The notes under the pieces are model-generated. The model did no database searches and had not been told where the DNA came from. It worked only from the letters and a program-made list of their open reading frames with translations. 64,000 nt of DNA from Chryseolinea serpens. Lineage in GTDB: Bacteria > Bacteroidota > Bacteroidia > Cytophagales > Cyclobacteriaceae. Shown in pieces: positions 25,901 to 32,429 of the stretch (position 1 is the first letter of the stretch; every line of letters begins with the position of its first letter). The translations under genes and the position numbers were made by a program. The stretch lies in assembly GCF_900129725.1 (NCBI RefSeq), contig NZ_FQWQ01000003.1, positions 186,001 to 250,000 on the forward strand. The letters run 5' to 3'.

Positions 25901-26830
25901 ATGAAAAAGACCCATACCCTCCTCACCGTCCTTGTTGCTTTTTTCTTACTGATCATCGCCCCGGGTTTGCAGGCTCAAGTAGTGAAGCCTGATTCGCTCA
26001 CGCACTGGAAGAGGAAGTTGTTGTTCAACGTCAACGTAAACCAAGCTTCGTTTTCGTCCAACTGGAAGGCTGGGGGTACGAACTCCATCGGCTTGAATGC
26101 CCGCTTCAATTATAAACTCACCTACAAACACGGCCGGAACGGATGGGAGAACGAGATCGATCTGCTCTACGGTTTTGTGAACAACGCAGGTCAAGGCTAT
26201 CGCAAGACCGTGGATCGCATTTTTATCGACACCAAGTATGGTTACGAACTGAGCAAGAACTGGGGATTGTTCTCTTCGCTCAATTTCATTTCGCAGTTTG
26301 CTCCCGGATACAAATATGAGAAGGACGCCAACGGCGTGGAGCAAAGTATTTTGATCTCCGATTTTCTGGCCCCCGCCTACATTACGTCAGCCTGGGGTTT
26401 GGAGTACCATCCCGTGGATTATTTTAAAGTGCGCATGTCACCGTTTGCCCCCAGGGTCACCATCGTGCGCAACTCCGAACGGTTTATTCCTTCCGTAGAT
26501 CCCGTAAAACCGTATGGCGTCACACCCCCTGACGAAACTCGTTTTGAATGGCTGGCCTTCCAACTCATGGCCGAGTTCAATAAGGACATTGCCAAGAACA
26601 TGAACCTGCAATGGCGCTACATCATGTTCGCCAACTACGAGACCCTGGCCTGGAAAACCATCGACCACCGGCTGGAGTTGCTGCTGAATGCAAAAGTGAA
26701 TCGGTTCATCCAGGTTGGTTTAGGAGGGATACTGCTCTACGATTACGACCAGGATTCCGGTGCGCAGATCAGCCAGGCGTTCAACCTGGGCTTTGCCTAT
26801 ACCTTCCAGAACTACGAGGAACCGAAATAA
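25901..26830 (+). CDS. DUF3078 outer-membrane-like protein
   Basis: 309 residues with signal peptide (ends L-Q-A-Q). The mature region opens with W-K-R-K-L-L-F-N-V-N-V-N-Q-A-S-F-S-S-N-W-K-A-G-G, the N-Q-x-x-F-x-x-W-x-x-G-G pattern that marks DUF3078, and proceeds in alternating aromatic strands to a final F-A-Y-T-F, as expected for an outer-membrane barrel. Role unknown in the literature I recall. Own promoter and own terminator, so monocistronic. Confidence 0.9.
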   Translation: MKKTHTLLTVLVAFFLLIIAPGLQAQVVKPDSLTHWKRKLLFNVNVNQASFSSNWKAGGTNSIGLNARFNYKLTYKHGRNGWENEIDLLYGFVNNAGQGYRKTVDRIFIDTKYGYELSKNWGLFSSLNFISQFAPGYKYEKDANGVEQSILISDFLAPAYITSAWGLEYHPVDYFKVRMSPFAPRVTIVRNSERFIPSVDPVKPYGVTPPDETRFEWLAFQLMAEFNKDIAKNMNLQWRYIMFANYETLAWKTIDHRLELLLNAKVNRFIQVGLGGILLYDYDQDSGAQISQAFNLGFAYTFQNYEEPK

Positions 26831-26859
26831 CGGGATCGTGGTCCCAACATCCATATTTG

Positions 26860-26890
26860 AAAGGCCTGAAATTTTCAGGCCTTTTCTTTT
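26860..26890 (+). terminator. Terminator after the DUF3078 gene
   Basis: Perfect stem AAAGGCCTGA (26860-26869) with TCAGGCCTTT (26875-26884), extendable by one pair to 11 bp over a 3-nt loop, followed by a T-rich tract. Confidence 0.85.
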
Positions 26891-26931
26891 GCTATCGCGA
26901 TAATTTTAAATTGCATAAAAAACCATCGCCC

Positions 26932-28482
26932 ATGTCAAAAGAAAGCTTCATCGCCGCCATCAACAAGGCGTACACCACATCGCTTCCCTCCATCTATCTC
27001 GGCGCGGGTGTTCTCAACAACGAGATCATCGCCGAAGCCAAAGTGAATTTACCCCTGCGCATGATGAACCGGCATGGATTGGTGACCGGCGCCACCGGCT
27101 CGGGCAAAACGCGCACCTTGCAATTGATGGCCGAGCAGCTTTCGGCCGCCGGCGTTTGTGTTTTCATGCCCGATATGAAAGGCGACTTGTCGGGCATGGC
27201 CAAGGACGGCGTGGCCAACGATAAGATCACCGAGCGCGCCAATGCACTGGGCATAAAATATACACCCTCCGGATTTCCGGTCGAATTGTATTCCCTGACC
27301 GGAAAACTCGGTGCACAAATGCGCGCCACCGTCACGGAGTTCGGCCCGACCTTGCTCAGCAAAATCCTGGAACTGAACGACACCCAGACCGGCGTGTTGA
27401 ACATTCTTTTCAAGTATGCGGACGATAAGAATTTGCCCGTCGTGGATTTCAACGATCTCAAGAAAGTCTTGAACTACCTCACGGAAGGCCCCGGCGCCGC
27501 GGAGATCAAAAGCGACTACGGAAAAATATCCGGCGCCACCGCCTCGACCATTCTGCGCAAGATCGTGGCCCTGGAGCAACAGGGCGTCGACAGCCTTTTT
27601 GGAGAGACCTCGTTCGACGTGGAAGACCTGTTCGAAAAGATCGACGGCCGCGGTGTCATCAGCCTGCTCAACGTGGCCGACATCCAAAACCAACCCGCCA
27701 TCTTCTCCACGTTCATGTTGTCGCTGCTGGCCGAGCTCTACCAGCGCCTGCCCGAAGCCGGCGACCTGGACAAACCCAAACTCATCTTCTTCCTCGACGA
27801 AGCCCACCTGCTCTTTAACGATGCGCCCAAAGCCTTCCTGGACCAGATCGATCAGATCATTAGATTGATCCGCTCGAAAGGTGTGGGCATATTCTTCTGC
27901 ACACAACTCACGCAAGACGTGCCGCCCTCGGTGCTGGCACAGTTGGGCAACCGGGTGCATCACGTGATCCGTGCCTTCACACCCAACGATGTGAAAGCTT
28001 TAAAAGAAACGGTGAAGACGTTTCCCAAGTCGGAGTACTACGAGATGGAACAACAGTTTACGCAACTGGGCACGGGTCAGGCCTTCATCACGGTGCTCAA
28101 CGAAAAAGGCATTCCCACCGAAACCGTGGTGACGCATCTGGCGCCGCCGGCGTCAGTGATGGGACCGTTGGGTGAGGGTGAGTATAAAGCACAATTGGAA
28201 TCGTCTGACATGTATAAAAAATACAAAGAGACCGTCGATCCCCAAAGCGCGTTTGAGATGTTGGATGGGCGCATGAAGCAGCATGAAGAGGAGCAGGCAG
28301 AGGCGAAGGAGCAGAAGGCCCAGGCGAAGACTTCTTCGCGGCGAGAGAAATCTACTTTCGAGGAAGTGATTGCGTCGCCGGTGGCCAAGCAAGTAGGGCG
28401 GGAGTTGGTAAGAGGAGTGTTTGGAGTCTTGTTCGGGACAAGTACGCGGCGGAGTTCGAAGAGGAGAGGTGGATTATTTTAG
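26932..28482 (+). CDS. HerA-like / DUF853 ATPase
   Basis: 516 residues starting at M-S-K-E-S-F (the frame is open further upstream but runs across the terminator, so the ATG at 26932 is chosen). Walker A G-A-T-G-S-G-K-T at residues 53-60, Walker B L-I-F-F-L-D-E-A-H near 284-292, and a C-terminal Lys/Glu/Arg-rich tail (about 450-500). This is the DUF853/HerA-type P-loop family with FtsK-HerA fold. Helicase or translocase activity is an inference from family. No NurA nuclease gene is adjacent. Confidence 0.92.
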   Translation: MSKESFIAAINKAYTTSLPSIYLGAGVLNNEIIAEAKVNLPLRMMNRHGLVTGATGSGKTRTLQLMAEQLSAAGVCVFMPDMKGDLSGMAKDGVANDKITERANALGIKYTPSGFPVELYSLTGKLGAQMRATVTEFGPTLLSKILELNDTQTGVLNILFKYADDKNLPVVDFNDLKKVLNYLTEGPGAAEIKSDYGKISGATASTILRKIVALEQQGVDSLFGETSFDVEDLFEKIDGRGVISLLNVADIQNQPAIFSTFMLSLLAELYQRLPEAGDLDKPKLIFFLDEAHLLFNDAPKAFLDQIDQIIRLIRSKGVGIFFCTQLTQDVPPSVLAQLGNRVHHVIRAFTPNDVKALKETVKTFPKSEYYEMEQQFTQLGTGQAFITVLNEKGIPTETVVTHLAPPASVMGPLGEGEYKAQLESSDMYKKYKETVDPQSAFEMLDGRMKQHEEEQAEAKEQKAQAKTSSRREKSTFEEVIASPVAKQVGRELVRGVFGVLFGTSTRRSSKRRGGLF

Positions 28483-29036: not shown

Positions 29037-30787
29037 CTAGAAATCGGGGTCAAGCCCAAGTCTTTCCTTCAGTTCCTTCAGGTTGGGATTCTTCTCCACG
29101 AGGTAGTCGAACTTGTCGCGGGGGGTGTACATCATTTTCTTTTCCTCCATTTCGCGCATTTCGCCCACCACCAGGATGGAATAGTTTTGCAGCGTGTCGC
29201 GCAGGTGGGTGATGAGTTCGGCTTTGACGTTGTTGAGCATGGTGTCCTGGACGGGACTCAACAAATGGACAATGACCTGGGTGCCCCGGAGTTCGTAGGG
29301 CTGCGAAAGGAGCTGGTATTCGGCCTGGAATTTTTTTCGTTGCTCGGCAAAAGTATTCCAGGCGGCCTGCATTTGTTCGGGTGTGAACGACTGGCTGGCC
29401 CGCGATTGCATCTCGATTTGCTGCTGCTCGGTCTGCTCTTGTTTGGGTTCGACCTTGGTGAGACCGGTAAGTTTTACCGTGGTCTTGGGGGCCGTTTTGA
29501 AACGGGAGCGTTCGGAGAAATCGGGCTTTTGCGAAAGACCGGGGAATGGCGGTGTCTCCGGTGCGGATGGCTCCTTTGGTGTGGAAGGTGGCGGCGTGGG
29601 ACTGCTTGGTGTTGTCGGCGTGGGTGTTTCCGCTACAGGAGTTGGTTCTGCTGCGGTGGTTCCGGTTTCTTCCGACGTTACACTAATTTTTTTTTTAACC
29701 CATCCCCCAGGTGGTTCAACTGTTGCAGTTGGAGCACAGCTCCCACGTTTGCCATTTTCATGAGGGCAAGCTCCACGGACAAGCGCTGGTTCTTGCTGCC
29801 TTTGTAGTTGATGTCGCACTGGTTGGCGATATTCAGCCAGGTGAGTAGGAGCGACGGGGGTGAGGACTGCGCTTGTTGCGCATATTTCTTTTTCACGCTT
29901 TCGGGCACCTCCATCAGGTTGGTGGTGCGTGCGTCTTGAGATACCAGCAGGTTGCGCAGGTGTTCGCTGAGGCCCACGATAAAGTTATGACCGTCAAACC
30001 CCTTGCGCAGGATTTCGTCCAGCAACAGCAGGGGTTGGGTGTGATTCTGGGTCAACAGCGCATCGACTACCTGGAAATAATAGTCATAGTCCAGGATGTG
30101 GAGGTTGCTCAGGGTGGCGTTGAAGGTGACGCCCTTGCCGGAGGAATAGGTCACCATCAGGTCGAAGATGGACAGAGCATCCCGGAGGGCGCCGTCGGCT
30201 TTTTGTGAGATCAGGTGGAGGGCCTCATCCTCGGCGGGGATGCCTTCGTGTTGCGCGATCTTTTTGAGGTGATGCGCGATGTCGCTGATCTGTATGCGGT
30301 TGAAGTCGAAGATCTGGCACCGCGAGAGGATGGTGGGGATCACCTTGTGTTTCTCGGTGGTGGCCAGGATAAAGATGGCATAGGAGGGGGGCTCTTCCAG
30401 CGTCTTCAAAAAAGCATTGAAGGCGGCGTTGGAAAGCATGTGCACCTCGTCGATGATATAGACCTTGAATTTTCCAAACTGGGGAGGGTAGCGCACCTGG
30501 TCGATCAGGTTGCGGATGTCCTCTACCGAGTTGTTGGAGGCGGCATCCAGCTCAAAGATATTCAGGGAGTTGGTTTCGGCCTTTTCTTCAAACCCGTTGA
30601 TGAGGCGGGCAACGATGCGGGCACAGGTGGTCTTCCCCACGCCGCGGGGTCCGCAAAACAACAGGGCTTGCGCCAGTTTGTTGTTGTCGATGGCATTTTT
30701 GAGCGTAGTGGTGATGTGCTCCTGGCCCACTACTTCGTCAAACCCCGTGGGGCGGTATTTCCGTGCCGATACGACAAAATTCTCCAT
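29037..30787 (-). CDS. dnaX: DNA polymerase III subunit gamma/tau, requires -1 shift
   Basis: Clamp-loader ATPase of the replisome. The zero frame from ATG 30787 runs through Walker A G-P-R-G-V-G-K-T-T (residues 46-54), Walker B/SRC region (D-E-V-H-M-L, later L-S-R-C-Q) and clamp-loader domains, then stops at 29678-29680 after about 369 residues (gamma-like). An A10 run on the minus strand (29687-29696) sits two codons before that stop. A -1 shift there continues into a Pro/Thr-rich linker and a tau-type C-terminal domain ending at 29037, in total about 583 residues. This is the same arrangement as E. coli and Thermus dnaX. The usual zinc-binding cysteines between Walker A and B are absent (only C55 occurs in that region). 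A sequencing error in the homopolymer is the main alternative. Confidence 0.9.
29687..29696 (-). promoter_or_regulatory. dnaX: dnaX slippery run (A10 on the minus strand)
   Basis: In zero frame it reads TTA AAA AAA AAA TTA GTG TAA. Slipping back by one base, or adding one A during transcription, joins it to the ATT AGT GTA frame of the tau domain. A GGGGGAT purine stretch lies just upstream (about 10 nt), and a 6-bp hairpin CAACTG/CAGTTG at 29717-29731 lies further upstream. No strong downstream hairpin was seen. Confidence 0.75.
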
Positions 30788-31241: not shown

Positions 31242-32429
31242 GTGAGCCTCTCTATCCGTGTTGTGCCCCTGATAAAAAAGATTTTCAGAAAGCCCCTATT
31301 CATCCTGATTGTATGGCTGTCGTTGGCCACCGTGGCGGGCCTCCAGCATTATGCGCTGGGTCACTATAATAACTATCGCATTTTTAAAAATGTGTTTTGG
31401 AACAGCGTGGAGGGCAAGAACCTTTACGCGCTGTACCCCGACGAACACAACGACTCCAATCATTACGGGCCTTTCTTCAGCGTGGTGTTTGCACCTTTCG
31501 CCCTGCTGCCGGATGCCCCCGGGCTTTGTTTGTGGATCATGTTCAATGGTGCCGTATTGTTCTATGCCATCCGTCAGCTTCCGCTGAAAGAATCCACCAT
31601 CATCGCTTTGCTGTGGCTCGTCACCAACGAGTTGTATACATCCTATTCCAACCAGCAGATCAATCCGCTGGTGGCGGCGTCGATCATCCTGGCCTATACC
31701 TGGATGCGGCAGGGGAAAGATTTTTGGGCGGCCGCGGTGATCATGGCCGGCACCTTCATAAAATTGTACAGCATCGCCGGCCTGGCATTTTTCTTTTTTT
31801 CGAAAAACAAAACAAACCTGGTAGCATCGTGCGTGTTTTGGGCGATCGTATGTTTCTCCGCGCCGATGGTCATTTCCGGGCCGGCCTTTGTGGTGCAGTC
31901 GTACCGGGATTGGTATGTTTCCATCAAAACCAAAGATGAATTGAATGCGAAGGAGTCGCACCACCAGGACATTTCCCTGTCGGGTGTGGTGCGGCGCGTT
32001 TCGGGCCACCGCGACATACCGATGCTTTACTTTTTGATCCCCGGTCTCGTTCTTTTCCTGTTGCCGTATCTTAAAACGCAATATTATGACGACACCACGT
32101 TCCAGCAGCTCATGTTGTGTTCGGTGTTGCTCTTCATTTGTTTGTTCAGCAGCAGTACGGAGTCGTCTACCTATATTGTTGCTTTTACGGGTGTGTCACT
32201 TTGGTTCCTTCTGCATGAACCACCGCCGGCGAAAATTATTTTAGGCTTGCTGATCTTTGCTTTCGTGTTAACGTCGTTGTCGCCTACTGACCTTGTACCC
32301 CGTCCCGTCAGAGCGTTCATCACGTCGTATTCATTGAAGGCCGTGCCGTGTGTGTTTGTTTGGTTATATTTAATGGCAGAGCTTTTGAAATACAATCCAT
32401 CTTCGAAATGGCAAAAGACAATCGCATGA
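31242..32429 (+). CDS. GT87 (DUF2029) family membrane glycosyltransferase
   Basis: 395 residues, about ten transmembrane helices. The N-terminal loop after helix 1 with N-N-Y-R-I-F-K-N-V-F-W-N-S-V-E-G-K-N-L-Y and the Y-P-D-E-H-N-D-S-N-H-Y-G-P-F-F block match GT87 polyprenyl-phosphate-dependent mannosyltransferases (PimE-like). The second gene overlaps its stop by ATGA, so the two are translationally coupled. GTG start chosen from the strong N-terminal helix; it could begin slightly later. Expected substrate is a polyprenyl-phosphate sugar, which the following GT2 could supply. Confidence 0.85.
   Translation: MSLSIRVVPLIKKIFRKPLFILIVWLSLATVAGLQHYALGHYNNYRIFKNVFWNSVEGKNLYALYPDEHNDSNHYGPFFSVVFAPFALLPDAPGLCLWIMFNGAVLFYAIRQLPLKESTIIALLWLVTNELYTSYSNQQINPLVAASIILAYTWMRQGKDFWAAAVIMAGTFIKLYSIAGLAFFFFSKNKTNLVASCVFWAIVCFSAPMVISGPAFVVQSYRDWYVSIKTKDELNAKESHHQDISLSGVVRRVSGHRDIPMLYFLIPGLVLFLLPYLKTQYYDDTTFQQLMLCSVLLFICLFSSSTESSTYIVAFTGVSLWFLLHEPPPAKIILGLLIFAFVLTSLSPTDLVPRPVRAFITSYSLKAVPCVFVWLYLMAELLKYNPSSKWQKTIA

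Follow-up and report, generated by a model that had tools for sequence, protein, structure and literature searches.

The dnaX gene in the stretch of Chryseolinea serpens DNA analysed here (64 000 nucleotides, hereafter the window) probably makes both clamp-loader subunits, gamma and tau, by transcriptional slippage on a run of ten adenines (A10), a reading that we give a probability of about 0.8. The gene lies on the minus strand (29678..30787). Its frame 0 runs from an ATG at 30787 to a TAA at 29680–29678, 6 nt past the run, and encodes a gamma-like DNA polymerase III subunit of 369 amino acids, recognized from the open reading frame and from its TIGR02397, Pfam and NCBIfam matches. The junction reads TTA AAA AAA AAA TTA GTG TAA in frame 0. 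Within it lies the putative slip site, A10 (29687..29696), assigned from its position and its conservation in relatives. The −1 frame meets no stop at the run and continues to a TAG at 29039–29037, which would yield a tau of about 583 residues. The tau-specific tail (29037..29696) comprises 219 amino acids from the first full AAA codon and is identified by a match to NF011531 and by purifying selection. The third (+1) frame is closed by a TAG (29683..29685) 1 nt past the run. The initial annotation had described a gamma-like frame-0 product of about 369 residues ending just past the run and a −1 frame opening there into a tau-type tail of about 200 residues, and both descriptions were borne out.

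Under the proposed mechanism, RNA polymerase would realign on the run and release transcripts with A9, A10, A11 and other lengths. The A10 transcripts would give the 369-residue gamma, and transcripts with A11 or A8 would bring the tail into frame and give tau. Transcripts with A9 or A12 would end at the third-frame TAG, giving another protein of gamma length. That slippage takes place at transcription, and at what rate, is what we infer from the sequences compared below.

The identity of the gene was established by model searches. The frame-0 product scored 375.1 bits against dnaX_nterm (TIGR02397), for which the curated cut-off is 250, and it also matched the Pfam clamp-loader domains and the NCBIfam gamma/tau models. 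All other dnaX_nterm matches in the window genome fell under the cut-off. The −1 tail aligned with positions 404–612 of NF011531, an NCBIfam gamma/tau model of 614 positions (E = 7.8e-25); this score is below the whole-protein cut-off of the model, only the tail having been given as query. A Pfam search with the −1 tail alone matched no family. The window dnaX is thus the DnaX clamp-loader gamma/tau gene. On either side of it, both on the plus strand, are a HerA-like helicase gene (26611–28482; PF05872, 576 bits) and a gene for a glycosyltransferase family 87 protein (31242–32429; PF09594).

The dual reading of this gene, with neither an assembly error nor a pseudogene behind it, was confirmed by comparison with its relatives. 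A check of relatives for A9 or A11 had been proposed in the initial annotation; all five same-genus genomes (G001–G005), one of them a single contig, carry A10 and the identical three-frame pattern. Compared with the nearest relative (L004), the tail read in the −1 frame shows a pN of 0.052 and a pS of 0.431 (dN/dS 0.08), with 19, 6 and 65 substitutions at codon positions 1, 2 and 3 respectively. These values argue that the tail is translated in the −1 frame; most other tail comparisons were saturated at synonymous sites. That the gene is broken, or that A10 is a homopolymer sequencing error hiding a single true frame, is scarcely conceivable. Homopolymers are indeed prone to sequencing error, and a few loci elsewhere fit such an error, namely two with A9 and tau in the +1 frame in single-contig genomes (L199 and L206), where A10 would restore the common pattern. 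Against this stand the agreement between the window genome and the five same-genus genomes, the purifying selection on the tail in the −1 frame and the occurrence of the same −1 arrangement in 122 of 289 loci, as well as the lack of any other dnaX_nterm match above the cut-off in the window genome. It is also very improbable that only gamma matters and that the tail is made separately or never. Although the unslipped frame yields gamma alone, the tail is under selection, and it is recognized as the gamma/tau C-terminal region both in the window and in 318 of 338 loci. The earlier proposal that this single gene deliberately gives rise to two products at A10 is therefore well supported at the level of sequence, by selection on both of its parts, by the conserved run and by the closure of the non-tau frames. 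An annotation calling the window dnaX truncated or frameshifted would be wrong.

Conservation of the run was followed across the Bacteroidota. A protein search together with fetched stretches gave 342 loci, and removal of two paralogues (L002 and L003) and two duplicates left 338, placed by kinship codes and record titles in the Cytophagales, Flavobacteriales, Bacteroidales, Chitinophagales and other groups. An iterated profile recognized the tau tail in 318 of them. A run of A9 or longer lies within 330 nt past the collar in 293 of the 338 loci, and the run is exactly A10 in 228. Among the same-family loci that were read, A10 was found in 75 of 89. A dnaX match was obtained in 142 of the 148 genomes from the family of the window; the open frame reaches at least 566 amino acids in 20 of these and is shorter (284–424 amino acids) in 122, a few of which are cut by contig ends. 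The remaining 45 of the 338 loci have no run of A9 or longer in the 330 nt past the collar. Of these, three carry A10 farther on (L029, L058 and L157), another has A7 only (L023), and 16 fall among the 40 loci from outside the class of the window (L303–L342). In 29 of 116 matched genomes, including those of L332–L336 and L338–L342, the DnaX match begins only at query residue 73 or 74. These are mostly genomes of 2–3 Mb from one family (code f82), and the N-terminal part appears as if interrupted or divergent.

The occurrence of A10 by itself is unremarkable in the window, where one was found and shuffled sequence gave a mean of 1.19. Elsewhere in the gene such runs are very rare. In 215 representative loci, chosen at less than 85% identity (a cut that is the sole correction for kinship), the AAA+/collar part (216 582 nt in total) contains two runs of A9 or longer and the tail (107 500 nt) contains three. 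It is the placement and conservation of the run, not its presence, that exceed chance.

The run is conserved across the phylum, but the reading frame of tau is not. Among 289 classified loci (the 293 with a run, minus two without an assignable tau frame and two with conflicting assignments, L212 and L092), tau lies in frame 0 in 159, in frame −1 in 122 and in frame +1 in eight. Hence the alignment of relatives that had been called for gave a divided answer: the A-run was found conserved (A9 or longer in 293/338) and the frame switch was not (159/122/8). About 39 switches of the tau frame appear on a 259-row FastTree tree, 22–23 of them forced by starred branches; 26 switches occur among rows with A10 only. 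Possible homopolymer under-calls are present in L199 and L206, mentioned above, and in L083, which has A9 and tau in +1 and whose relatives have A10. The flipping between gamma-unslipped and tau-unslipped genes while A10 is kept suggests that slippage is probably frequent, frequent enough for the tau:gamma ratio hardly to depend on which frame is templated. A phylum-wide run with a flipping frame thus predicts very frequent slippage, which RNA sequencing can test directly.

Closure of the frames that do not lead to tau was compared with shuffles of synonymous codons of the tau frame in the representative loci. Both non-tau frames are closed within 20 nt past the run in 103 of 125 loci with tau in frame 0 (32.5 ± 4.1 expected), in 73 of 83 with tau in frame −1 (20.6 ± 3.5 expected) and in all seven with tau in frame +1 (3.2 ± 1.1 expected). 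At control positions 60–360 nt farther on, both frames are closed within 15 nt in 9–11%, and in run-less one-ORF genes, of 756 positions taken 60–140 nt past the collar anchor, 103 have both frames closed within 20 nt. Against the general pattern, 10 of 87 same-family loci are without closure of both frames within 20 nt. In the window the two non-tau stops lie 1 nt and 6 nt past the run, which fits the criterion for slippage of the Thermus type, and A10 falls within the class of A or T runs of at least nine that is used as a criterion for slippage. Closure of the third frame favours slippage, because slippage feeds all three frames and a −1 ribosomal shift feeds only one new frame. The third-frame stops could partly be leftovers of earlier frame states.

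The main alternative is programmed −1 ribosomal frameshifting on the heptamer A_AAA_AAA, which the window run contains; tau would then be made from a uniform mRNA. This is unlikely, although it has several points in its favour: the window needs exactly a −1 shift and has a frame-0 stop close behind, A-rich heptamers are described as shift-prone in the portion of the literature drawn on here (PMC5009743), and in two of the five same-genus genomes (L004 and L008) the downstream fold has a z score below −3. Pure −1 shifting, however, never uses the third frame, and the choice of synonymous codons closes that frame in 75 of 83 loci, where shuffles give 46.7 ± 3.5. The run is also retained whether tau is in frame 0, −1 or +1, and neither enrichment of Shine-Dalgarno (SD)-like motifs nor a clear general downstream hairpin is seen. 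SD-like motifs occur upstream of the run in 80 of the 215 representatives, the synonymous shuffles giving 72.1 ± 5.4, so that no enrichment over shuffles was detected. An SD stimulator had appeared as a candidate from an excess over downstream tail windows (73/215 versus 16%), and was rejected when the excess proved to be explained by amino acids and disappeared against synonymous shuffles. Downstream folding over the 215 loci is near that of controls, slightly stronger with a mean z of −0.55 against −0.28 and −0.19. The window itself has a downstream z of −1.56, in agreement with the earlier statement that no strong hairpin follows the run, and an Rfam search gave no match above the gathering score. 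Two upstream features named in the initial annotation fared less well. The GGGGGAT stretch is present upstream of the window run, but with SD-like motifs at shuffle level it carries no sign of function; nor does the upstream hairpin, the 60 nt before the run folding no better than shuffles (z +0.77). The closed non-tau frames, the lack of SD enrichment and the near-control folding together leave transcriptional slippage the likelier mechanism, as had been proposed at the outset, and ribosomal frameshifting may contribute via A_AAA_AAA.

A few loci outside the window have two-ORF arrangements of other kinds. L401 (G466:C14) has no A-run; GGGGGAG lies upstream, the gamma stop is followed at once by a GC-rich stem-loop of 9 bp, and tau is in −1, so that the locus resembles a classical cassette for ribosomal frameshifting. 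The junction of L070 (3532–3660) has no A-run either, and its tau tail is shifted by +1 from the gamma frame, an arrangement that reflects either recoding or an assembly error.

A distinct arrangement was found in a clade of Bacteroidales. L098 (3599–3630) and L100 lack the A-run, and an in-frame TAG terminates gamma, with tau following in the same frame. The genomes of L098 and L100 bear RUG names, presumably denoting rumen genomes. The genus of L098 gave a dnaX match in 57 of 59 genomes. In 41 non-duplicate loci with an in-frame tail of at least 150 codons past the gamma stop, the stop is TAG in all 41 and is followed in all 41 by ATW GCN AGR; conservation extends to about +28 with little beyond, and the codon preceding TAG is variable. 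Another 20 genomes of the genus, none of which has A9 within 330 nt, added 17 TAG loci and three of another kind. The total is thus 58 (L098, L100 and 56 non-duplicate loci among L355–L430 and L453–L469). In the other three (L450–L452) AGC TAG closes gamma and the tail is placed in +1. Its peptide is similar (AR..) and the rest of the element is recognizable, so that these loci look like a variant with a +1 frameshift.

When the genus was scanned with a covariance model of the element, 53 of the 59 genomes had a single strong match (E of 4.6e-9 or better), placed no more than about 80 nt from the dnaX match. Among the matches listed, the weaker ones at other places (E = 6e-6 and up) look like chance. 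The six genomes without a strong match consist of the three +1 variants (G505, G519 and G530), one with a decayed element at dnaX (G523, L453) and two with no dnaX match (G501 and G521). Among 149 genomes of the order, the seed genome alone had a strong match, and 12 others reached E values of 1e-5 to 1e-4. TAG needs a single change on a FastTree tree that comprised 77 rows of the family, before the final loci were added; the branch has low support (29), and the neighbours of the TAG clade are one-ORF genes without an A-run. The element may also contain a small hairpin. Column-wise covariation was absent in 29 element stretches from the 41 loci; some members of the clade retain a GCC/GGC hairpin displaced by one column, and in L454 a U-A pair replaces C-G at the loop-closing position (judged by eye). 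A structure is suggested by these sequences.

In this clade dnaX most likely uses programmed UAG readthrough. Reassignment of UAG was ruled out, since RF1 is above cut-off in all 10 of the clade genomes given and TAG itself ends the tau tail in 8 of the 41 loci; UAG is thus a real stop there. Separate production of the tail by AUG reinitiation was likewise rejected, the first in-frame ATG lying anywhere from 16 to 209 codons past the TAG with no fixed place. The tail may come from a non-AUG restart. Unlike the slippage genes, these loci often have long open +1 and +2 frames past the TAG. Among the matches listed in a search of titles and abstract openings in the open-licence literature, there was no report of UAG readthrough in dnaX.

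Taken together, it is fairly likely, judging from these comparisons, that dnaX across the phylum forms a natural series in which the gamma and tau output is kept while the device changes: A10 slippage in three polarities, in at least one locus what looks like a −1 cassette (L401), in the Bacteroidales clade programmed UAG readthrough via a new conserved element some 30 nt long (TAG-ATW-GCN-AGR with a small hairpin; strong matches only at dnaX) and, in L450–L452, what looks like a +1 variant. If this is true, the setting of a subunit ratio in the replisome by UAG readthrough would, within the literature searched, be a bacterial use of recoding not described before. Confirmation of the UAG clade would mean that a single gene family arrives at two products by slippage, frameshifting and readthrough. 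The need for gamma is described as debated in the sections of the literature drawn on (PMC5009743), and a confirmed UAG clade would make it testable by comparison. What a specialist would not expect here is the evolutionary pattern and the UAG clade.

Two-product dnaX genes are known from several systems, and the comparisons that follow rest on portions of the papers cited. In E. coli, tau is encoded in frame 0 and gamma arises by −1 ribosomal frameshifting, with an SD sequence and a stem-loop as stimulators (PMC5009743; PMC3711429). The window gene resembles it in having two products with a common N-terminus, the short one ending just past an A-rich site. It differs in having A10 and tau in the −1 frame; the E. 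coli locus has six adenines followed by G, tau in frame 0 and a third frame open for 35 nt (one case, judged by eye). In Thermus thermophilus, dnaX has A9 and uses transcriptional slippage, and stops in both other frames catch the slipped transcripts (PMC5009743; PMC1088944). Its coding A-run before the tau part and its two stopped frames are shared by the window gene, for which two products are proposed here; the unslipped frame of T. thermophilus encodes tau and has A9, whereas that of the window encodes gamma and has A10. The statement in the initial annotation that the arrangement is as in E. coli and Thermus must be corrected on this point, because the polarity is reversed: there tau is unslipped and gamma is recoded (PMC3711429; PMC5009743). 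As the frame closure observed here matches the logic of Thermus, slippage was placed first among the mechanisms.

The closest counterparts were described by Antonov et al. (2013), who reported that 17 dnaX genes from 12 genera depend on recoding to make tau, found 10 adenines in nine of these and proposed slippage (PMC3711429). The window gene belongs to this reversed-polarity type, already described in 2013. As in those two-ORF genes, its unslipped frame gives gamma and its tau depends on recoding into a −1 tail. A poly-A run lies at the frame transition, with A10 in 5/5 same-genus genomes and 75/89 same-family loci. What the present analysis adds is scale. In place of the 17 genes in the part of that study drawn on here, 338 loci from one phylum were compared, in which both polarities share one A-run, three polarities are connected by many switches of frame and both frames that do not lead to tau are closed.
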